The translations under genes and the position numbers were made by a program. The notes under the pieces are model-generated. The model was not told where the DNA came from, did no database searches, and saw only the letters and a list, made by a program, of their open reading frames with translations. Positions 1,376 through 43,619 of a stretch of 64,000 bases of DNA are shown piece after piece. This DNA comes from Novosphingobium barchaimii LL02. Its GTDB lineage: Bacteria > Pseudomonadota > Alphaproteobacteria > Sphingomonadales > Sphingomonadaceae. How positions within the stretch are numbered: the stretch's first letter is position 1; each line of letters starts with the position of its first letter. Location: the NCBI RefSeq assembly GCF_001046635.1, contig NZ_KQ130455.1:186001-250000 (forward strand), given 5' to 3'.

Positions 1376-3292
1376 ATGGCTACCACGACGGCTTCCGGCA
1401 CGCCGGGTTCAGGCCCGGCGGCTTCCGGCACCGGAGAACTGCTGGGCGATGTCATGCGCAGCCAGGCACAGGGTCTTTCCACGATCCTGGGCCAGATGAT
1501 CCCCGCAGAAGGCACGCCAGGCGCCGAGGCTACCGTGCATTGGGCCGAGATTGCCACGCGCATGCACTCGATCTGGACCGAGTTCCAGGTCGAACAGCTC
1601 AACAGGGCGTCCGACAAGGCGCCGCACTTTGCCGACCCGGCCCGTTGGATCGGTACGGCGGAGGCGGTGTTCCGCCAGCTTCCCTTCACCAACCCGGACG
1701 TTCAGCACAAGCTCTGGAACGAGGGGCTCAGCCTCGTCAATACGGTGTTCGGGCAGTACGGTCTGGGCGCAAATGCCAAGGGGCAGGCGGGCGACGCACC
1801 GGCTGCGGAACTCGACCTTCCGCGCAAGGACCGGCGCTTTGCGGATCCCGAATGGCGCCGCCAGCCATTCTTCGCGTTCCTCCACCAGGCCTACCTGATG
1901 ATGAGCGAACAGATGCTGGGCATGGCCGATGCGGTCGAGGGGATGGAGCCGGGCCGCAAGGCGCAGCTGCAATTCGCCACGCGCACCATGGTCGATGCGC
2001 TCAGCCCGGCCAACTTCCCGCTGACCAACCCGGTGGCGCTGGGCAAGGCGGCGGAAACCCGCGGCGAAAGCCTGGTGCGCGGTTTCGAGAACCTGCTCGA
2101 CGACATGCGCAAGGGCCAGCTCACCCACACCCGCCCCGGCGCCTTCGTGCTGGGCGAGAACATCGCTGTGACGCCGGGCAAGGTGGTGTTCGAAACGCCG
2201 CTGTATCAGCTGATCCAGTACACGCCGACCACGGACAAGGTGCTCAAGACCCCGCTGCTGGTATTCCCGCCGTGGATCAATCGCTTCTACATCCTCGATC
2301 TGAACGCCAAGAAGAGCTTCGTGCGCTGGGCGGTGGAGCAGGGGATCACCGTCTTCATGGTCTCGTGGAAGTCGGCCGACGCCTCGATGGCGGACATTTT
2401 GTGGGACGACTATATCGCCGCCCAGATCGAGGCGATCGATACGGTGCGAGAGCGTCTGAATGTCCCTTCCGTCCACACCATCGGCTACTGCGTGGCGGGC
2501 ACCACGCTGGCCGCGACGCTGGCGGTTCTGGCCCGCAAAGGCGAGGCGGACAAGGTGGCGAGCAGCACCTTCTTCACCGCGCAGGTCGATTTCGAGGACG
2601 CCGGCGACCTCAAGAACTTCATCGACGACCAGCAGATCGACGCGGTTGGCAGGCTTTCGCCCGAGGGCTATCTGGACGGGCGCTATCTGGCCGCCAGCTT
2701 CAACATCCTGCGCGGCAACGACCTGATCTGGAGCTACGTCGAGAAGAACTACCTCAAGGGCGAGGAGTATCCCGCCTTCGACCTGCTCCACTGGAACGGC
2801 GACGTCACCAATCTCCCGGCGCGCTGGCACCGCGACTATCTGCGCGATCTCTACCGCGACAATCGCCTGGTGGTGGCCGATTCGCTCTCTGCCTGCGGAG
2901 CGCCGATCGACCTGCATCGCATCACCACCCCGGTCTACATCCAGGCCGGCCGCGACGATCACATTGCGCCGCCGGTCAGCGTCTGGAAGCTGACGCGCTA
3001 TCTTGCCGGGGACTGGACGTTCCTGCTGGCCGGATCCGGCCACATCGCCGGGGTCGTCAATCCGCCGTCCTCGGGCAAGTACCAATACTGGACCAACGAC
3101 GGCTCGCCAGAGAGCCTGGACGAGTTCGTCGCGGGGGCGAGCGAGCATCCCGGCAGCTGGTGGCCGCATTGGGCCAAGTGGCTTCGCGGGCGCGATGGTG
3201 AAGAAGTGCCGACGCGCGGCAAGCGCAAACCCGGTGGGCGAGGCGACCGTGTGATCGAAGATGCGCCCGGTCGGTATGTGGCGGGTCGCTGA
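1376..3292 (+). CDS. phaC: Class I poly(3-hydroxyalkanoate) synthase PhaC
   Basis: Polymerises (R)-3-hydroxyacyl-CoA into PHA on the surface of carbon-storage granules. The protein of about 638 residues has the N-terminal PhaC domain followed by an alpha/beta hydrolase core. The lipase-box-like GYCVAG carries the nucleophile Cys (about residue 372). The catalytic Asp is in GRDDHIAP (about 528) and the His in GSGHIAGVVNPP (about 556). I chose the ATG at 1376 because a purine-rich GGAGAGAG lies just upstream; an in-frame ATG at 1334 would add 14 atypical residues. The length fits class I synthases, and a phasin follows about 300 bp downstream. Confidence 0.95.
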   Translation: MATTTASGTPGSGPAASGTGELLGDVMRSQAQGLSTILGQMIPAEGTPGAEATVHWAEIATRMHSIWTEFQVEQLNRASDKAPHFADPARWIGTAEAVFRQLPFTNPDVQHKLWNEGLSLVNTVFGQYGLGANAKGQAGDAPAAELDLPRKDRRFADPEWRRQPFFAFLHQAYLMMSEQMLGMADAVEGMEPGRKAQLQFATRTMVDALSPANFPLTNPVALGKAAETRGESLVRGFENLLDDMRKGQLTHTRPGAFVLGENIAVTPGKVVFETPLYQLIQYTPTTDKVLKTPLLVFPPWINRFYILDLNAKKSFVRWAVEQGITVFMVSWKSADASMADILWDDYIAAQIEAIDTVRERLNVPSVHTIGYCVAGTTLAATLAVLARKGEADKVASSTFFTAQVDFEDAGDLKNFIDDQQIDAVGRLSPEGYLDGRYLAASFNILRGNDLIWSYVEKNYLKGEEYPAFDLLHWNGDVTNLPARWHRDYLRDLYRDNRLVVADSLSACGAPIDLHRITTPVYIQAGRDDHIAPPVSVWKLTRYLAGDWTFLLAGSGHIAGVVNPPSSGKYQYWTNDGSPESLDEFVAGASEHPGSWWPHWAKWLRGRDGEEVPTRGKRKPGGRGDRVIEDAPGRYVAGR

Positions 3293-3587
3293 TCGCCTTA
3301 CGAATTACCACCGATCCTGCTGCAATTTAATTGATCGGCGTCGTCGGGAATCCGCTGGCTGACACATTGTTGCAATCGGCCAGTGGCTTAAATCCTGAGG
3401 ACTGTTCACAAGGTAAGAAATGCTGCGGTGCAACATTTTGTTGCGATGCAACATAACGCTGTTGACTTCGCGCCTGCAAAAACTTATTTTGCAACGCAGC
3501 AACGATGTAAACGACTCGTGCGTTGCTCCGGTGCTGGGCGCAGGCTCGGCTGATGTGCAAGTTTTCACCTAAGGCTGGATCATAAAC
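3293..3587 (+). promoter_or_regulatory. Phasin upstream region with repeated TTGCAAC/TGC motifs and a sigma70-like promoter
   Basis: This gene-free stretch is AT-richer than its surroundings and holds several TGC-rich motifs: CTGCTGCAAT (3317), TTGTTGCAAT (3367), a cluster at 3421-3452 containing GTGCAAC and GATGCAAC, and TTGCAACGCAGCAA (3490-3503). A promoter-like TTGACT (3462-3467) and TATTTT (3485-3490) are separated by 17 bp and sit between the last two clusters. PhaR, the PHA-responsive repressor, is known to bind TGC-rich sites upstream of phasin genes in other alphaproteobacteria. Assigning these motifs to PhaR is inference. Confidence 0.5.
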
Positions 3588-4640
3588 ATGGCCGACCATG
3601 AAGACCCCAAGGACAAGGCCCCGGCCGTAGAGGCTCCCAAGGCCGTGCCAGCGGGCGATGTTATCGCAGCAAATGTTGCCAAGGCGCCGGCAGTCGCCAA
3701 GCCTGCCGAGGTCAAGCCTGCCGAGGTCAAGCCGACCGAAAGCAAGGTGGCCGATATCAAGCCCGTCGAAGCCAAGCCGGTTCAGGCGAAGCCCGTTGAG
3801 GTTGTGTCGGCGCCCGCCGGCAAGGCTCCCGAGCCGGTCCCTGCCAAGCCGGCCGCGCCCGTCAAGGCGCCTGCTCCGGTTAAGGCTGTGGCCAAGCCCG
3901 TCGCCAAGGTTCCCGAGGTCAAGGCTCCCGCCGTCAAGGCGAAACCCGGCCCGAAACCCAAGATCAAGACCGCGCCCGTCGCCCAGGCCAAGCCTGCCGC
4001 GAAGTCGAAGCCGGTCGAAAAAGTTGTTCCGGCAAAGGTCGCTCCGACTCCGCCGATCAGCAAGGTTGCCAAGGACGTGAAGGCCCCGGTTGCGGTGGTC
4101 ACGATCCCGAAGGCGGCCACTCCCAAGGCGGCACCAAAGACCGCACCTAAAACCAAGCCCGTCTTCGCAGGACTATTCACCAACTTCATGCTCGAGGAAA
4201 CGAATATGGACATGAGCACTAACTTCGTCGGCCTTCAGGACGCGATGACCGAAGCCCAGGCCAAGGCCAAGGCAGCCTTCGAAAAGAGCACCAGCGTGCT
4301 TGGCGAAGTCACCGAATTCACCAAGGGCAATGTCGAGGCATGCGTCGCTTCCGGCAAGATCCTGGCTGAAGGCGTTCAGGGCATGGGCTCGGAACTGGTG
4401 GCCGAAGGCCGCACCGCTTTCGAAGCCATGACCGGCGACATCAAGGAACTGGCTGCCGCCAAGTCGCCGACCGACTTCTTCAAGCTCCAGGGCGACATGG
4501 TCCGCAAGAACTTCGACAGCGCCGTGGCGTACAGCTCGAAGAACAGCGAAGCCATGCTCAAGCTGTTCAGCGACTCGTTCGCGCCCCTCTCGGGCCGCAT
4601 GAGCATCGCCATGGAAAAGGCGCGTTCGGTCTCGATCTGA
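3588..4640 (+). CDS. Phasin with long Lys/Ala/Pro-rich N-terminal extension
   Basis: Phasins coat PHA granules and control their size. Residues about 207-350 are a canonical-size phasin domain, starting MDMSTNFVGLQDAMTEAQ and rich in amphipathic helix. Residues 1 to about 200 are low-complexity Pro/Ala/Lys/Val with many KPAE, AKP and KAP units and a KPGPKPK stretch, resembling the basic tails of PhaF-type granule proteins that bind DNA. A GAGGAAA motif with good spacing precedes an in-frame ATG at 4206, so a short phasin of 144 residues could be made from the same message. The long form starts at 3588 with a weaker ribosome site. Phasin identity is firm; DNA binding is inference. Confidence 0.85.
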   Translation: MADHEDPKDKAPAVEAPKAVPAGDVIAANVAKAPAVAKPAEVKPAEVKPTESKVADIKPVEAKPVQAKPVEVVSAPAGKAPEPVPAKPAAPVKAPAPVKAVAKPVAKVPEVKAPAVKAKPGPKPKIKTAPVAQAKPAAKSKPVEKVVPAKVAPTPPISKVAKDVKAPVAVVTIPKAATPKAAPKTAPKTKPVFAGLFTNFMLEETNMDMSTNFVGLQDAMTEAQAKAKAAFEKSTSVLGEVTEFTKGNVEACVASGKILAEGVQGMGSELVAEGRTAFEAMTGDIKELAAAKSPTDFFKLQGDMVRKNFDSAVAYSSKNSEAMLKLFSDSFAPLSGRMSIAMEKARSVSI

Positions 4641-38125: not shown

Positions 38126-38890
38126 ATGGATCCGCTGAACGATATCCAGGATGAGGCCCCCGGGTCCCTGCGTGACGCCATTGCGCGCCGCGCGGCCTTC
38201 GCGCGTGAGCCGCATCCGGAGGGCGTGAGGAAGCCGCCTCTGCAATTGATGCTGGCGGAACTTCGTTCGCTTTATCGCGGCGCCCATCGTGGTCAGGTGG
38301 TGCGGGCGGCGGCAAGGCCGATGCCGGTGATGCTGCTGCCGGGCTTTGCCGCGCACCCCAAGCGCATGCAACCGATGGCCGACGCGCTGGCGGCGTCAGG
38401 GCACCATGTCTACGGATGGGGGCTGGGCTTCAATTTCGGACCCAGCGAGCGCAATTTCTCCTTTCTGATGCGCCGCGTCGCGGTGATCGCGCGGGAAAGC
38501 TGGTCGCCGGTCGCACTTGTCGGCTGGAGCCTGGGGGGCCTGTTCGCGCGGGAGATCGCGCGGCGCGAGCCGGCGCTGGTGGCCAAGGTCATCACCATGG
38601 GTACGCCTTTTTCCGGCGATCCGCGCGCGAACAATGCTTGGAAAGCCTATCAGATGGTGACAGGCCATTCGGTGGACCGGCCGCCGATCGACTGCGATTT
38701 TTCGGAGAAACCAGCGGTGCCCACCGTGGCACTATGGAGCCCGCGCGACGGCATCATCCAGCCCCGCGCCGCTGCGGGCTGGCCGCACGAGCGGGACCGT
38801 GCCGTGGCGATTCGGTGCAGTCACCTCGATTTTTCGAGTTCGCCCAAAGTCGTGACCGAAGTGCTGCGCCAGCTGGATATCAAGGAATAG
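38126..38890 (+). CDS. Alpha/beta hydrolase
   Basis: A 254-residue alpha/beta hydrolase. The nucleophile elbow is GWSLGG (about 137), followed by a probable acid in SPRDGIIQPRA (about 210) and the His in CSHLDFSSSP (about 233). An oxyanion segment LLPGFAAHP precedes them. It resembles triacylglycerol-lipase or acyltransferase-type hydrolases, with unknown substrate. It starts 23 bp after the DUF3617 gene. Confidence 0.8.
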   Translation: MDPLNDIQDEAPGSLRDAIARRAAFAREPHPEGVRKPPLQLMLAELRSLYRGAHRGQVVRAAARPMPVMLLPGFAAHPKRMQPMADALAASGHHVYGWGLGFNFGPSERNFSFLMRRVAVIARESWSPVALVGWSLGGLFAREIARREPALVAKVITMGTPFSGDPRANNAWKAYQMVTGHSVDRPPIDCDFSEKPAVPTVALWSPRDGIIQPRAAAGWPHERDRAVAIRCSHLDFSSSPKVVTEVLRQLDIKE

Positions 38891-39012
38891 CCATCGCCCG
38901 GCAGGGGGGCTGCGCTTTCAAACCCTTGATGTGGTGGATGCGACCTACCGTCTCTGCGCTGCCAAAGCCTACGGTCGCAGCGGCGACCCACCGAGAGGTA
39001 TGCAAGCGTCAG

Positions 39013-39033
39013 GTTATGGTGGTGAGCGGACAT
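39013..39033. repeat. Right end of a truncated intergenic repeat
   Basis: GGTGGTGAGCGGACAT matches the right edge of the repeats between the next genes (compare GGTGGGGAGCGGACAT at 39961). No matching left end is visible, so the copy seems truncated. The rest of the gap 38891-39079 shows no gene. Confidence 0.55.
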
Positions 39034-39079
39034 TTCGCAGAGCCGACGCTTCGGCATTGATCTTCGGATTCGATGGTTC

Positions 39080-39358
39080 TCAATGATGGAGCGAAGCCGT
39101 CCGGCGCTTGACCAACAGTACGACCAGTCCTGAAAGGACAACAGTTGCAATCCAAACGCTTGAGGTAATGAGAAGAGCCAGCGCCCCCATTCCTTCCCAA
39201 TCATTGTCCCGTCCAACAGCCAGGTACCTTGCAAGCAAAGCGACGACGGGGATGAAAGCTGTCGCAAGCAGTGAAAAGGTGGGGCGTGATCTCGATAGGA
39301 GAGCAGCTATTCCCCCAGCGATTGCCGCTGTGACGCATATCGTGATGATGACACCCAT
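39080..39358 (-). CDS. Small three-helix membrane protein in immunity-like array
   Basis: A protein of about 92 residues starting MGVIITICVTAAIAGG with three predicted membrane helices (about 1-17, 27-46 and 55-83) and a short basic tail KRRTASLHH. It has no recognised family. It is the last gene, in transcription order, of the minus-strand array that starts below comM. It could be a membrane immunity protein; that is inference from context only. Confidence 0.55.
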   Translation of the reverse strand: MGVIITICVTAAIAGGIAALLSRSRPTFSLLATAFIPVVALLARYLAVGRDNDWEGMGALALLITSSVWIATVVLSGLVVLLVKRRTASLHH

Positions 39359-39411
39359 TGCGCCTTCTCCGTCCTGCGAAGCGTGTAGACTGCCGCTAAC
39401 TCGCATCGACC

Positions 39412-39484
39412 GCAAGGGGGCGCTTGCTGCCGTTCTCGCAAAATCGTCCCAGAAGGGCGCGAAGTGGTGGTTAGCTGCCGTTTG
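39412..39484. repeat. Intergenic repeat copy 2
   Basis: It begins GCAAGGGGGCGCTTGC, shared with copy 5 (41529), and its middle 46 bp (39425-39470) match copy 4 (41113-41158) at 44 positions. It ends GTGGTTAGCTGCCG, like GTGGTTAACTGCCG in copy 5. The stop codon of the following minus-strand gene lies 8 bp from its right edge. Confidence 0.75.
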
Positions 39485-39491
39485 TCTATCG

Positions 39492-39827
39492 CTAATTCAC
39501 CGCCTCTACCCAAACACGAAACGTCGAGATCAGCCGCCCAAGATCGCGAGGGCCGCACCAACCTTTGAACTTCGGCCCTTCAACACGGCAGACTAGCCAA
39601 GGCACGTCGCCATCCAGCCCTTGAACAGACTGCTCCGGCTCCGACACACCTTCGTAAACGGGTAGAAAAGCCAGCCCCTCCAATATCGTACCATCGAGAT
39701 CGACTGACAGGCTCCATCCCGGATTATCGAGCGTGTCGATTGTTACGCCGAACTGGTGCTCCCAGTCCTCATCGCATTGGGATAGGTACCATTGCATCAG
39801 CCAGTCTAAATCATCAGGTTTGCTCAT
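39492..39827 (-). CDS. Imm53-family immunity protein
   Basis: A 111-residue cytoplasmic protein. WLMQWYLSQCDEDWEHQFGV, then TIDTLDNPGWSLSVDLDGT is the signature N-terminal half of Imm53, a family of immunity proteins found in polymorphic toxin loci. No cognate toxin is in the window, which fits an orphan immunity gene protecting against toxins of competitors. The ATG at 39827 is followed by MSKPDDLD. Confidence 0.75.
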   Translation of the reverse strand: MSKPDDLDWLMQWYLSQCDEDWEHQFGVTIDTLDNPGWSLSVDLDGTILEGLAFLPVYEGVSEPEQSVQGLDGDVPWLVCRVEGPKFKGWCGPRDLGRLISTFRVWVEAVN

Positions 39828-39853
39828 TTTGCGATCTTAGCCATCTGCTTCAG

Positions 39854-39976
39854 ATGTCCGCAACTAGGCGTGAACAGCCAGTCCGGTTTTGCCGTTTCGC
39901 GGCGGTAAGCCGCCTTTCCGCTGACAGGCATCCAAGGCGGCGCGGGGAAAGGCTGAAAGTGGTGGGGAGCGGACAT
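39854..39976. repeat. Intergenic repeat copy with perfect terminal inverted repeats
   Basis: ATGTCCGC (39854-39861) and GCGGACAT (39969-39976) are perfect inverted ends of a 123-bp element. Inside, CCGCCTT pairs with AAGGCGG. It ends GGTGGGGAGCGGACAT, the same edge as the copy at 39013. It is the best-preserved member for defining the element's ends. Confidence 0.7.
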
Positions 39977-40034
39977 CCGATGCCACTAAGAACCCCGATG
40001 TGGCTTCGGTCGAACGCAAGCCATGGCTCTACGT

Positions 40035-40391
40035 TCAGCTTGGCTTCTTGGGGAAAACGGTTTTCAGATAATTGATTTTCGAAATTTCACACGACCCTTT
40101 TGTAACTCTTCCTACAATACCACCAAACTCGCATATTACATTGCCGCGCTGGTCATAGAGTATATGCTCGTTGCCGCCATCAGCGGGACGGTCCTCGGGC
40201 AAAACATGGACAGCCGTTTGGCCTTTGTATTCCACCGCTTCAATGACCGTGTGACTTCCCCAGCGCTGACTTGCTACGAGCCTATCAATCCAAGACTGAT
40301 CTTGTCGGCCAGATGTTTTAGTGCATGACACAATCGTCATGATGAACGCAGCGCATCCGATGGTGGAAAAGATTTGAATGCGGGCCTTCAT
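40035..40391 (-). CDS. Exported DUF6970-like protein
   Basis: A 118-residue protein with a signal or lipoprotein peptide (KARIQIFSTIGCAAFIMTIV, then SCTK with a possible lipobox Cys at about 23). The mature part, with WIDRLVASQRWGSHTVIEAV, HILYDQRGNVICEFGGIVGR and a final SCEI, resembles DUF6970-type periplasmic proteins with a Cys pair. AT content is higher than in the flanking core genes. In this array it may act as a periplasmic immunity protein; this is inference. Confidence 0.55.
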   Translation of the reverse strand: MKARIQIFSTIGCAAFIMTIVSCTKTSGRQDQSWIDRLVASQRWGSHTVIEAVEYKGQTAVHVLPEDRPADGGNEHILYDQRGNVICEFGGIVGRVTKGSCEISKINYLKTVFPKKPS

Positions 40392-40416
40392 GGATCAAGC
40401 CTACCGAGCGTTGCCG

Positions 40417-40575
40417 ATGTCCGCAATGTTGTCGTGTCCGGTCAGGCCGGTCTTCGCTCGGGGCAGCGGATGGCAGACGGTCAGCTATGAAGCGCAGGCA
40501 CCGCCCTGTTTAATGGCCGAAAGGGGTGGAAACCGGACTGGCGGCTTTCGGGACAGAGTAGGGCAAAGCGGACGC
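40417..40575. repeat. Intergenic repeat copy 3, divergent
   Basis: It begins with ATGTCCGC (40417-40424) and ends AAGCGGACGC (40566-40575), a 6-of-8 match to the usual right end. The interior is diverged from the other copies. Its right edge touches the stop codon of the next minus-strand gene. Confidence 0.5.
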
Positions 40576-41039
40576 TATCCGCCCAGCATTTCTACCCGTT
40601 CGTCCTCTGTGCAAAGCGCAATTGTCGCCAGCGTATGCTGCCCTTTTGCGTGCGCGACGACCGCCAAGGCACTCCTCACGACGAGGTCGTTCGTCGCTTC
40701 ACCGAGATCGCGTAACGCCAGTGGGAGAACGGCAGCCCAAGCCTGTTTGTAGTCCTGTTCGAGTTCGGGAGGAATCGACGGGCTGGCTTCGGCCAAGCGA
40801 CCTTCTTCAATAGACGCTACCAACGAGTAGGCGTTCCAGTCAGGCTCCGCCTGTTCCTCCATCATCCGGACAATCTCTCCGACCGCCGCATATGAGGCCG
40901 AATTGACAGTTCCTTGATGGTAGAGCTTTTCCCATAATTCCTGCGGGGCAGCTTCGACATGACCGCCTCGCCAAGCCTGTATTGCGGGCAGTGGATCATA
41001 GGGTTCGCCATACGCGCTTAGCCAAGGGTCTTCGGACAT
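40575..41039 (-). CDS. Helical protein of the immunity-array type
   Basis: A protein of about 154 residues, starting MSEDPWLSAYGEP. The segment LWEKLYHQGTVNSASYAAVG recalls HEAT-like helical proteins (HQGT-x4-SYAA) seen near polymorphic toxin systems. The rest is predicted all-alpha. No catalytic motif is present. A longer reading to 41129 runs into the repeat and is unlikely. The immunity role is inferred from the motif and from position. Confidence 0.55.
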   Translation of the reverse strand: MSEDPWLSAYGEPYDPLPAIQAWRGGHVEAAPQELWEKLYHQGTVNSASYAAVGEIVRMMEEQAEPDWNAYSLVASIEEGRLAEASPSIPPELEQDYKQAWAAVLPLALRDLGEATNDLVVRSALAVVAHAKGQHTLATIALCTEDERVEMLGG

Positions 41040-41056
41040 ATTTCGCTCCAACTGCG

Positions 41057-41170
41057 AGCGTCTGCTTATAGCGTCGGTGCGCAAGCTGCGGAACGGCCAA
41101 GATTGGGGCGGATGCTGCCATTCTCGCAAAATCGTCCCGGAAGGGCGCGAAGTGGTGGATGACGGACGTT
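41057..41170. repeat. Intergenic repeat copy 4
   Basis: It contains 46 bp (41113-41158) that differ from copy 2 at two positions only. The outer parts are diverged: GCGTCTGC on the left and GACGGACGTT on the right stand in for ATGTCCGC and GCGGACAT. Its right edge lies 3 bp from the stop codon of the next gene. Confidence 0.7.
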
Positions 41171-41173
41171 TGG

Positions 41174-41497
41174 TCAGGCGTTCGGGGCCTGCTCACCGAG
41201 TAAACTGACTTCGCTGCTGTCAGTAACGACCCCATGCCCATCGAGCGTCCGTAATCCGAATACCGCGTCACCGTCTCGGTCAGTGATGTGGTGTTCGGCC
41301 TGAATTAAGATCGCAGGCACATCCGCCCCATCAGCCTCATGCCAAATGGCATATTGAGGCACCTTAACCTCGAACGGCTCGCTTGGCTCAGCATCGTCGG
41401 CTTGCTGGCAGAACACCGCATCTCCTCGGTCGACGTCATCTACAGTGGCCGAGCGGCCCGCGATAAAGCCCGTGGTGGGAAGTGTAGGCCATGTCAT
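41174..41497 (-). CDS. Short acidic conserved protein of the immunity array
   Basis: A 107-residue acidic protein: FIAGRSATVDDVDRGDAVF near the start, VPQYAIWHEADGADVPAILI in the middle and QAEHH afterwards. I recognise the (I/A)GR-AT--DV--G-AVF ... IPQYA ... VQAE arrangement as a recurrent small-protein family often found with immunity genes, but I cannot name it. It is predicted beta-rich and cytoplasmic. Function unknown. Confidence 0.55.
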   Translation of the reverse strand: MTWPTLPTTGFIAGRSATVDDVDRGDAVFCQQADDAEPSEPFEVKVPQYAIWHEADGADVPAILIQAEHHITDRDGDAVFGLRTLDGHGVVTDSSEVSLLGEQAPNA

Positions 41498-41522
41498 CTC
41501 GTAAGCATCGCCTCTGCTTTTA

Positions 41523-41586
41523 ATGTCTGCAAGGGGGCGCTTGCGATCCGGCAGAATTTTGGCGCGAGAGGGTGGTTAACTGCCGA
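41523..41586. repeat. Intergenic repeat copy 5 (short)
   Basis: It begins ATGTCTGCAAGGGGGCGCTT and ends GGGTGGTTAACTGCCGA. It lacks most of the middle block of copies 2 and 4. Its right part overlaps the last codons and stop codon of the next minus-strand gene (stop at 41576-41578), so the element contributes to that gene's C-terminus. Confidence 0.6.
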
Positions 41587-41899
41587 CCGTGGCATGTTCG
41601 GAGCCGAAGATTTCCGCGAACCACGACATGTTGAGATCAAAAAACCAGCCCCGATTTTCCTCGGTGAGGAACGACGCCAACTGGGTCATTTCAAGTCCGT
41701 AACGACGACAGAAGCCTATTAATTCCCATATGTCATCGTCGGTAGGGAAACGATTGAACCGCAAGTACATGCTCGCACCCTCGCCGTAGCTATCCTCAAC
41801 AAATGACATGCGATCAATCCACTCGATGAACGCACGCTCATCGTTGTCATGAAAAAATAGGATATCGGTGGCGACGAGTTGAAGGGGCTTGTTGACCAT
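41576..41899 (-). CDS. Small conserved protein of the immunity array
   Basis: A 107-residue protein. LFFHDNDERAFIEWIDRMSF and then LRFNRFPTDDDIWELIGFCR and RYGLEMTQLASF follow a pattern I have seen in short orphan proteins of sphingomonads and xanthomonads, probably an immunity-like alpha/beta protein. No catalytic motif is visible. It is the first array gene downstream of comM. The function cannot be assigned from sequence. Confidence 0.55.
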   Translation of the reverse strand: MVNKPLQLVATDILFFHDNDERAFIEWIDRMSFVEDSYGEGASMYLRFNRFPTDDDIWELIGFCRRYGLEMTQLASFLTEENRGWFFDLNMSWFAEIFGSEHATVGS

Positions 41900-41934
41900 A
41901 CGCTATGGTGTCATCGACGCTCCCTTTGCGCAAC

Positions 41935-41953
41935 GTCTGCAACGGGGCGCTTA
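41935..41953. repeat. Repeat fragment at the comM 3' end
   Basis: GTCTGCAACGGGGCGCTTA matches the left block of copy 5 (GTCTGCAAGGGGGCGCTTG). It ends 6 bp from the comM stop codon and marks the boundary between core genome and the array. Confidence 0.5.
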
Positions 41954-41959
41954 CCGCCG

Positions 41960-43468
41960 TTAACGCACAGGTGCGCGCCGTCGATAGCTGAGCGCTTCGG
42001 CGATATGGATCCGGCCGACCGTTTCCGCGCCGCCAAGGTCCGCGATCGTGCGCGCGACCCGCAGAATGCGGGTGTAGCCACGGGCGGACAGGCGCATCGT
42101 TTCGGCGGCCTGAAGCAGCAGGCGGCGTCCGGCGTCGTCCGGGGTGGCGTGCAGGTCCAGCATCTCGCCGTCGAGTTCGGCATTGGTCCGCGCCGCGACG
42201 CCTTCGAGCCTGGCCGTCTGAACCTGCCGGGCCCGGGCTACGCGTGCGGCGACCTCGGTGCTGCCTTCCTTCGGCGGGGGCAGGGCCAAGTCCACCGCCC
42301 GCACCGGATCGACTTCTACATGCAGGTCGATCCGGTCGAGCAGGGGGCCGGAAACCTTGCTCTGGTAATCTGCGGCGCAGCGCGGCGCGCGCGAACAGGC
42401 CAGCGCCGCATCGCCAAGATGCCCGCATCGGCACGGGTTCATCGCCGCGATCAACTGGACCCGCGCCGGGTAGGTGAGGTGGGCATTGGCCCGTGCGACG
42501 GTAACTTCGCCGGTCTCCAGCGGCTGGCGCAGCGAATCGAGGGCCTGGCGCTGGAATTCGGGCAGTTCGTCAAGGAACAGCACCCCCAGATGCGCCATCG
42601 AAACCTCACCGGGGCGCACTTTCATGCCGCCGCCGGTCAGCGCCGCGATCGAGGCCGAGTGGTGCGGCGAGCGGTAGGGCCGGGCGCGGCTGATCCGCCC
42701 GCCCTCCAGCGTGCCCGAAACCGAGGCCACCATCGACACTTCCAGCGCTTCTGCCGGGGTCAGTTCGGGCAGGATGCCCGGCAGGCACGATGCCAGCAGC
42801 GATTTTCCCGCGCCGGGCGGGCCGATCATCAACAGGTTGTGCGATCCGGCCGCGGCGATCTCCAGCGCGCGGCGAGCGGTTTCCTGCCCCTTCACCTGCC
42901 GCATGTCGGCCCCGCGCGGCGGCGCCTCGACCACGCCGAGGGCGGGAACCGGCAGCACCTGCGTGCCCTTGAGGTGGTTGAGCAGGCTGATGAGGTTCGG
43001 CGTAGCGATCACCGGCACGCCGCTGGCCCAGCGCGCTTCGGACCCTTGCGCGGCAGGGCAGATCAGGCCCTTGCCGGTCTCGCTGGCGTGAAGGGCGGCG
43101 AGCAATACCCCGGGTGAGGGGATCACCCGCCCGTCCAGCGCCAGTTCGCCCACCGCCACGAAATCGGCGATCTGCTCGGCATCGACAACGCCCATCGCCG
43201 CCAGCAGCGCCAGCGCCACCGGCAGGTCGTAATGCGAGCCTTCCTTGGGCAGGTCGGCGGGGGAAAGGTTGATGGTGATCCGTTTGGGCGGCAGCGCCAG
43301 GCCCATGGCGGTGAGCGCGGCGCCGACGCGCTGCGTGCTTTCACGCACTGCCTTGTCGGGCAGGCCGACCAGCAGGAAGCCTGGCAGTCCCGGCGCGATC
43401 TGGCACTGCACCTCGACGGCGCGCGCCTCCAGCCCGAGGTACGCGACGGTCGAGACGAGTGCGACCAC
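41960..43468 (-). CDS. comM: ComM/YifB family Mg-chelatase-like AAA+ helicase
   Basis: A hexameric branch-migration helicase that helps integrate incoming DNA during natural transformation. The 502-residue protein has the N-terminal ChlI-like domain (LEARAVEVQCQIAPGLPGF, then LVGLPDKAVRES), Walker A GPPGAGKSLLA (about 215), Walker B LFLDELPEF and the C-terminal Mg-chelatase domain with a CRCGHLGD zinc-ribbon-like segment. I chose GTG 43468 (MVALVSTVAYLG) over an upstream in-frame ATG because family members start there and AAGGGATA precedes it. comM is a known insertion hotspot in other bacteria. Confidence 0.93.
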   Translation of the reverse strand: MVALVSTVAYLGLEARAVEVQCQIAPGLPGFLLVGLPDKAVRESTQRVGAALTAMGLALPPKRITINLSPADLPKEGSHYDLPVALALLAAMGVVDAEQIADFVAVGELALDGRVIPSPGVLLAALHASETGKGLICPAAQGSEARWASGVPVIATPNLISLLNHLKGTQVLPVPALGVVEAPPRGADMRQVKGQETARRALEIAAAGSHNLLMIGPPGAGKSLLASCLPGILPELTPAEALEVSMVASVSGTLEGGRISRARPYRSPHHSASIAALTGGGMKVRPGEVSMAHLGVLFLDELPEFQRQALDSLRQPLETGEVTVARANAHLTYPARVQLIAAMNPCRCGHLGDAALACSRAPRCAADYQSKVSGPLLDRIDLHVEVDPVRAVDLALPPPKEGSTEVAARVARARQVQTARLEGVAARTNAELDGEMLDLHATPDDAGRRLLLQAAETMRLSARGYTRILRVARTIADLGGAETVGRIHIAEALSYRRRAPVR

Positions 43469-43619
43469 GAAGTATCCCTTATTCCGCAAGTAAAACAACG
43501 AAGAGGGATCAGTGTAGTAAGCATTCGCTGCCCGGCGGCCACTGCGTAGTTTATGCCTTACGACGTTTTAACCGCGCTCGTGAGGTGCCGGGTAAGGGTA
43601 TCAGCCGCATCGTTAGGCC

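Follow-up and report, generated by a model that had tools for sequence, protein, structure and literature searches.

The 64,000-nucleotide stretch of Novosphingobium barchaimii LL02 analysed here (contig NZ_KQ130455.1, positions 186,001 to 250,000; hereafter the window) carries, in the interval from an alpha/beta hydrolase gene (hyd) to the core gene comM, six short genes separated by related repeats. We read this row as an orphan array of gene-plus-repeat cassettes, probably assembled in an integron-like manner by a tyrosine recombinase of 210 residues acting on the repeats. A broader proposal, to which we give an even chance, is that sphingomonads possess a cassette-capture system analogous to integrons that employs neither IntI nor attC, and that comprises a minimal recombinase, a 30-bp dyad behind it and ORFan arrays with elongated sites. 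Directly visible in the sequences are the site family, its arrays, units shared between them, empty and one-gene versions of the comM locus, and the placement of a site core behind the recombinase gene. Arrays are found on chromosomes and on a prophage-bearing contig, while the recombinase and its site also occur on plasmids.

Putative cassette genes and repeats beside comM

The hyd–comM interval consists of six short minus-strand open reading frames (ORFs), G1–G6, separated by repeats (R0–R6), as delineated by the ORF list together with Pfam and NCBIfam searches. Repeats were scored with a two-block weight matrix (left core and right core) trained on 50 sites from other genomes; as these had been picked by a consensus with at most four mismatches, the matrix favours typical sites. 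The features are, in the order in which the minus strand is read:

41960..43498, minus strand: comM/yifB, flanking core gene (TIGR00368, 504 bits)
41929..41959, minus strand: R0, half site against the comM stop codon, right core of 18.0 bits at 41929–41948
41576..41899, minus strand: G1, cassette gene of 107 aa, no family over cut-off (Pfam DUF2623 only, below cut-off)
41519..41586, minus strand: R1, overlaps the G1 stop, right core of 19.4 bits at 41519–41538, left core GGCAGTTAACCACC with its end set by eye
41174..41497, minus strand: G2, cassette gene of 107 aa, no family
41090..41171, minus strand: R2, left core of 13.9 bits, no right core of at least 5 bits, right end set by eye
40575..41039, minus strand: G3, cassette gene of 154 aa, no Pfam family above cut-off
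40413..40542, minus strand: R3, full site, 29.2 bits
40035..40391, minus strand: G4, cassette gene of 118 aa, DUF6970 (Pfam, 29.5 bits against a cut-off of 27)
39850..39978, minus strand: R4, full site, 34.7 bits
39492..39827, minus strand: G5, cassette gene of 111 aa, Imm53 immunity family (PF15580, 8.7e-30)
39402..39483, minus strand: R5, full site, 22.7 bits
39080..39415, minus strand: G6, cassette gene of at most 111 aa, no family
39016..39035, minus strand: R6, left core alone, 19.8 bits, last site of the array
38126..38890, plus strand: hyd, flanking alpha/beta hydrolase gene

On the minus strand, left cores were found at 41171, 40542, 39978, 39483 and 39035 (11.9–20.7 bits) and right cores at 41948, 41538, 40432, 39869 and 39421 (10.8–19.4 bits). 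An extra right core at 42051 (13.2 bits) lies inside comM and is probably a chance match. The plus strand of 38800–42100 contains no core of at least 8 bits, and the rest of the window gives four left and three right matches at that level. For R1, the left core stays under 5 bits, although it is similar to the left core of R5. R2 and R5 share 87% identity over 68 nt, and a site from the nearest relative (genome G707) matches R2 at 94% over 63 nt and R5 at 91% over 66 nt. An Rfam scan of the window returned tRNA only.

The original prediction, drawn from the letters of the window, had described a six-gene minus-strand array of low G+C content beside comM, and this much is confirmed by the ORFs, Pfam and the site matrix: the G+C content of 38891–41959 is 0.563 against 0.654 for the remaining window, and the lowest of 220 other stretches of equal length is 0.608. 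A repeat had been proposed after each gene, bar possibly the last. This holds for the genes, with the amendments that the half site R0 stands between comM and G1, and that G6 is followed by a left core only (39016–39035). Four of the six stop codons were said to lie at or in a repeat; the G2 and G5 stops do lie within 10 bp of left cores of at least 11.9 bits and the G1 stop lies inside the core scoring below 5 bits, which gives three of six, and the count becomes four only if a 7.2-bit core at the G3 stop is included. The Imm53 identity of one gene also stands. Immunity motifs in three further genes do not: G4 belongs to DUF6970, G1, G2, G3 and G6 have no Pfam family over cut-off, and NCBIfam and PADLOC searches of all six genes matched no family.

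The label of an orphan immunity array is therefore weak, as an immunity family is assigned to one gene of six, all of them co-oriented, and the other five have none. A related alternative holds that this is a defence array of the polyimmunity type or of the rAID type (recombinase-associated acquired interbacterial defence), whose small genes are kept to neutralise the toxins of rivals and are only shuffled by the recombinase. Imm53, the short, co-oriented, low-G+C genes of the window and a barstar-like protein encoded in a Qipengyuania array speak for it. We nevertheless regard it as improbable, because most of the cassette proteins tested have no family, gene orientation is mixed elsewhere and PADLOC matched none of the window genes. 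Among 18 ORFs from other arrays (eight of L391, ten of L102), one is barstar-like, one belongs to DUF7674 and 16 have no Pfam family. This alternative concerns the cargo and is compatible with a cassette mechanism. As for individual genes, homologues of G3 occur in four of 249 genomes of the family; the closest (57%) sits after an alaS-like frame, and no full site lies within 1.5 kb of any of the four.

Of 119 genomes in the genus-level group, 98 have a homologue of hyd, and the hyd–comM interval was examined in 20 of the best 26, six being skipped. In seven of these 20 relatives, including G707 and G671 (comM 97.8% identical), hyd lies directly beside comM with a gap of at most ~75 nt, and no recognisable site is present at the locus. 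Genome G668 has one different gene of 158 aa in an interval with a G+C content of 0.55, where a right core of 18.5 bits stands ~250 nt away from comM and the hyd side has a left core of the window type, CGGCAGATAACCACT, with one mismatch to the pattern. In ten relatives the interval is occupied by other genes and lacks full sites; L344 and L347 among them have single half-core matches of 9.8–12.4 bits. In the remaining two, comM is out of reach. Given these unrelated genes without full sites (L338–L354), the interval is a general insertion hotspot. G707 has no array here and carries one elsewhere (L391, seven full sites). The comM 3′ region thus exists in empty, one-gene and six-gene versions, and no gene order fixed across all relatives emerged. 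The idea first put forward, growth through the addition of single gene-plus-repeat cassettes, is supported by the empty loci, by the one-gene version in G668 and by units recurring in several contexts (see below). Taken as a whole, the earlier interpretation holds in part, well for cassette growth and poorly for an immunity array; it included neither the nature of the repeats as recombination sites nor a candidate integrase.

Sites, arrays and shared units in other genomes

The consensus of the sites is an outer dyad around a variable centre, AAYGTCCGCTNNCCACC – variable centre – CCATTGCGGACRTT. A search of 13 sphingomonad genomes with the end motif of the window repeats revealed a dense array in Qipengyuania aquimaris (G004; NZ_WTYI01000001.1); Novosphingobium sp. 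SG707 (G003) has a smaller array, on a contig that also bears a prophage. The two-ended pattern is present in 18 of the 249 family genomes, with 32 matches against four in a backwards control, the 32 including some apparent chance matches within genes; in the class it is present in four of 385 genomes, near the control level of three. The site family is found mainly in sphingomonads. Among viral contigs, 41 stretches match the pattern and five keep both ends in a looser scan.

Sites of one array are similar in length (flanking bases included), and those of different genomes are not: 12 of 15 sites measure 96 nt in Q. aquimaris, eight of ten 70 nt in G140 and six of nine 82 nt in G125. Dyads without a centre, 26–30 bp long, number 49 distinct sequences in 3.35 Mb, a sample largely fetched because of its sites, compared with none in the reversed sequence. 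In our reading, this minimal dyad has an inverted arm of ~11 bp on either side of an 8-bp spacer, and core sites of tyrosine recombinases are usually built in this way. Consensus folding of the Qipengyuania sites with RNAalifold gave four pairs.

Arrays in other genomes have 3–15 sites. Orientation is uniform in seven of 12 loci (15, 10, 9, 4, 4, 4 and 3 sites) and nearly so in three more (6/7, 4/5 and 3/4), and L216 (4 + 3) and L224 (2 + 2) are mixed. The genes between the sites, taken by a longest-ORF rule, run with the site direction in 30 cases and against it in 17, over 47 intervals in the 12 loci. As genes run both ways, a plain role as gene terminators does not account for the sites. 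One cassette of L102 in Q. aquimaris contains a tRNA-like stretch (GGTTCGAATCCC arm; ~3860–3980, minus strand), and ARAGORN makes no tRNA call there.

Single gene-plus-site units recur in several places. L104 and L183 have one unit in common (93.6% over 598 nt), and the DNA past its bounding sites is unrelated. One unit is present twice in G125 (L154; 96% over 422 nt), an array unit of Q. aquimaris is repeated at a second place (L100/L102; 98.3% over 415 nt), and G211 has two copies of a unit (L148/L224; 85.8% over 500 nt). Genes are also common to G707 and G239 (75% over 408 nt) and to G707 and Q. aquimaris (71% over 367 nt). In the printed pairs, the 3′-end of the shared unit reaches into the left core and its 5′ start falls in, at or just past the right core. 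These comparisons indicate that gene-plus-site cassettes move as units.

Further observations concern the same loci. In L104 (Novosphingobium sp. SG707, G003:C16) the cassettes are at the contig end, next to frames that resemble portal, terminase and DNA adenine methylase genes of a P2-like prophage. An IMG/VR contig, L191, has the length and sites of L104. In G671:C21 (L386, L387), a 343-residue ORF with its adjacent site occurs twice, 42 kb apart, at 98% identity.

The sites might instead be palindromic elements resembling repetitive extragenic palindromes (REP) or miniature inverted-repeat transposable elements (MITE) that settle behind genes, in which case the genes would not be mobile units and a copy beside the recombinase would be one insertion among others. 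The minimal palindromic forms and single dispersed copies would suit such an element, as would the position of sites between genes and the lack of site–recombinase co-occurrence across genomes. On the other side stand the uniform site orientation in arrays whose genes lie on either strand, the unit common to otherwise unrelated stretches, and two features described in the next section, namely a core at fixed distances behind one recombinase and a sequence switch at GGTGG. We consider this explanation unlikely, though it deserves more weight than the other alternatives.

The candidate integrase and its adjoining site

In G026, one array ends directly at a recombinase frame of 217 residues; in Q. 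aquimaris, a relative is found next to a site. This integrase family is found in 86 of the 249 family genomes, fragments included. Its length is 210 residues by the start rule used here and by plasmid annotations, and its sole Pfam family is PF00589. Six residues, R61, K89, H158, R161, H184 and Y193, are invariant in 41 of 41 sequences and are read as the catalytic set. An AlphaFold model was poor (predicted local distance difference test, pLDDT, 63), and its best Foldseek matches, tyrosine recombinases with a low TM-score, were given no weight.

A convergent left core of at least 12 bits was found within 160 nt past the integrase stop codon in 11 of 40 loci, which are a chosen, mostly better-scoring part of the ~130 matches listed. 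The expectation, computed from the remainder of the same stretches (most loci covered ~9 kb downstream), is 0.22. The core lies at +73 to +78 from the stop in eight loci and at +43 to +44 in three. At other recombinase loci, none of 20 ORF ends has a core, although some of these ends may be antisense since 13 loci were covered on both strands. Full sites in the orientation of the core follow within 1.5 kb in four of the 11 loci (L260, L265, L266 and L291). Genomes G258 and G139 combine the integrase with an adjacent array. L266 and a plasmid of Sphingopyxis sp. 113P3 (L299, integrase WP_053556534.1; its core of 10.7 bits is under the 12-bit counting cut-off) are identical from the integrase stop to GGTGG and then differ; the same is true of L249 and a plasmid of S. 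macrogoltabida EY-1 (L304), and nearly the same break is seen in L259, L265 and L268. Identity up to GGTGG followed by divergence is the pattern expected of a fixed attachment site with exchanged cassettes. The list of attI-like sites (15 of 42) was picked by the presence of GGTGG, so that conservation of this motif within the list is by construction; the identical upstream flanks of L266/L299 and L249/L304 are unaffected. The comparisons point to an attI-type simple site that adjoins the integrase and shares its core with the array sites.

A second attI type, with a right core behind some integrases (71–74% identity), is weakly supported: such a core is found in four of the 40 loci against 0.67 expected, and in G671 two copies agree, bar one mismatch, as far as CGCCCATTGTCGCCG and diverge from there on. 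Nine near relatives were compared, of which G671, G664 and G674 have full or near-full integrase genes, G707, G746 and G668 have partial matches and three have none. In the window itself, a search for this family alone, other integrases not being sought, gave no relative of the 210-residue integrase (best tblastn E 2.4).

Several integrase loci show other features. In L141 (G026:C56, 982–1161), a short element with GAGGCTGTGTGAAAAC terminal repeats lies in the spacer of an attI-like site beside the integrase. In L388 (G664:C14, ~2190–3735), an insert of ~1.5 kb splits an attI-like site, and the first bases past the far-end core match L266. L216 (G026:C56, 7208–11837) has four plus and three minus sites around an integrase, apparently aimed at it from both sides. 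In L285, L291 and L275, a further site-like dyad, perhaps an operator or a second attachment site, is placed ~730 to 550 nt ahead of the integrase stop codon, at the start codon or slightly upstream. Plasmids of rhizobia, Pantoea, Vibrio and Escherichia carry relatives of the integrase as well (437 plasmid records).

In the mechanism that we propose, the integrase would bind the dyad and exchange strands in its 8-bp spacer. The attI-like copy would recombine with the site of a circular cassette, adding a gene next to the integrase, and recombination between array sites would excise or copy cassettes. Arrays without an integrase, such as that of the window, would be orphans that an integrase elsewhere could use. 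As no relative of this integrase was found in the window, its array would correspond to an attC cluster that lacks an integrase, either a remnant or one served in trans. Binding, strand exchange, the circles, the direction of growth and the way in which the array first reached the comM locus are the parts of this scheme that we infer.

A number of observations weigh against this reading. Genome-wide co-occurrence is absent, the integrase being found in six of 18 site-bearing genomes (G026, G133, G150, G203, G205 and G255) and in 80 of the other 231 family genomes; the comparison is coarse, because the site pattern is strict (it misses an array in G258) and the integrase matches include fragments. 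G140 and G125 have large arrays and no integrase match, and G707 has a fragment. No core of 12 bits is present in 29 of the 40 integrase loci, and the counts are not independent, because these loci share ancestry. Full sites of opposite orientation lie at +983 in L265 (22 bits) and +6465 in L284 (41.5 bits), and L267 diverges from its relatives ahead of GGTGG. Two homologue loci on Rhizobium and Agrobacterium plasmids (L302, L303) have none of these sites, so a different site may serve the rhizobial integrases. The 5′ boundary of shared units varies in its exact base. Site ends show no pairing preference (6.61 of 9 for a site's own end, 6.40 for that of the next site and 6.41 for random ends). 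Finally, none of G1–G6 turned up in 11 searched stretches or in the 20 hyd–comM loci examined.

The link between integrase and arrays is thus carried by the core placement and the four loci with full sites, not by co-occurrence. Another recombinase, Xer or an integrase that escaped recognition, could drive the cassettes, with the 210-residue family merely using a look-alike core. The large arrays of G140 and G125 and the lack of co-occurrence would agree with this. The core, however, is fixed behind the 210-residue family and not behind the 20 ORF ends at other recombinase loci, and full sites follow in four loci, so that we give such a driver little probability. Nor did the general phage integrases of 15 genomes lie at any consistent place near arrays.

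Comparison with known systems

Polyimmunity loci are strings of small immunity-like genes without toxins. The window array resembles them in its Imm53 gene and differs in that each junction bears a defined repeat resembling a recombination site and in that one gene of six, not the majority, is of a recognised immunity family. FimB/FimE-type invertases belong to a size class of ~200 residues. The G026 integrase matches the NCBIfam families PRK09871 (1e-5) and PRK09870 (1e-4), 'tyrosine-type DNA invertase'; these scores are far under cut-off, and the sites linked to this integrase are arranged in gene arrays, not as a single switch.

For the cargo, the closest analogue is rAID of Bacteroidales, described as a predicted tyrosine recombinase with co-oriented, short, low-G+C genes and conserved intergenic motifs (PMC12247911). 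The likeness extends to a candidate tyrosine recombinase, the array of short low-G+C genes, the intergenic motifs and the immunity family in the window array. In that description, rAID genes are co-oriented orphan immunity genes of Bacteroidales, whereas the arrays described here are of mixed gene orientation outside the window, have few genes of recognised immunity families and belong to Sphingomonadales. The comparison of the two is by description. Among the literature matches listed, no title or opening of an abstract described this sphingomonad cassette system.

In the textbook view, bacteria gather single genes as cassettes by way of integrons. The attC sites of integrons have R boxes that end in AAC and start with GTT. 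Here, GTT at the right end is found in four and AAC at the left end in five of the 50 training sites. As to recombination of a folded single strand, as with attC, consensus folding gave the four pairs noted above, and the site ends showed no co-variation. The arrays could in principle be a divergent true integron cluster, with attC sites served by IntI, and the layout is alike: a recombinase, an adjacent simple site, an array of longer sites with variable centres, and orphan clusters. We hold this to be very improbable. IntI (TIGR02249) was not found over cut-off in any of 13 genomes, two of which (G003 and G004) have arrays, and weaker matches occurred in all 13 and in all 14 controls. The linked recombinase scores 22.5 bits against the TIGR02249 cut-off of 265, and among NCBIfam families it matches an archaeal Xer family best (65.5 of 220 bits). 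According to a 2022 paper, integrons are entirely absent from Alphaproteobacteria, an absence that it calls intriguing (PMC9668308), and another reports no integron found by IntegronFinder in Erythrobacter litoralis (PMC5770381). Simple tyrosine recombinases usually comprise a core-binding and a catalytic domain, and the catalytic domain of IntI has an insertion, according to a third (PMC8138268).

The system proposed here would share with integrons and with clusters of attC sites lacking integron-integrases (CALINs) a recombinase gene with an adjacent simple site, arrays of genes and variable-centre sites, integrase-less clusters, and cassette genes mostly of unknown function. It differs in its 210-residue recombinase with PF00589 only, in sites that end in ATT more often than in GTT, in a convergent core behind the recombinase stop, and in its sphingomonad hosts. 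If the proposal is right, it would explain the strings of ORFan genes in sphingomonads and supply a compact recombinase with defined sites, and cassette capture would have evolved more than once, with the same layout and a different recombinase and site.

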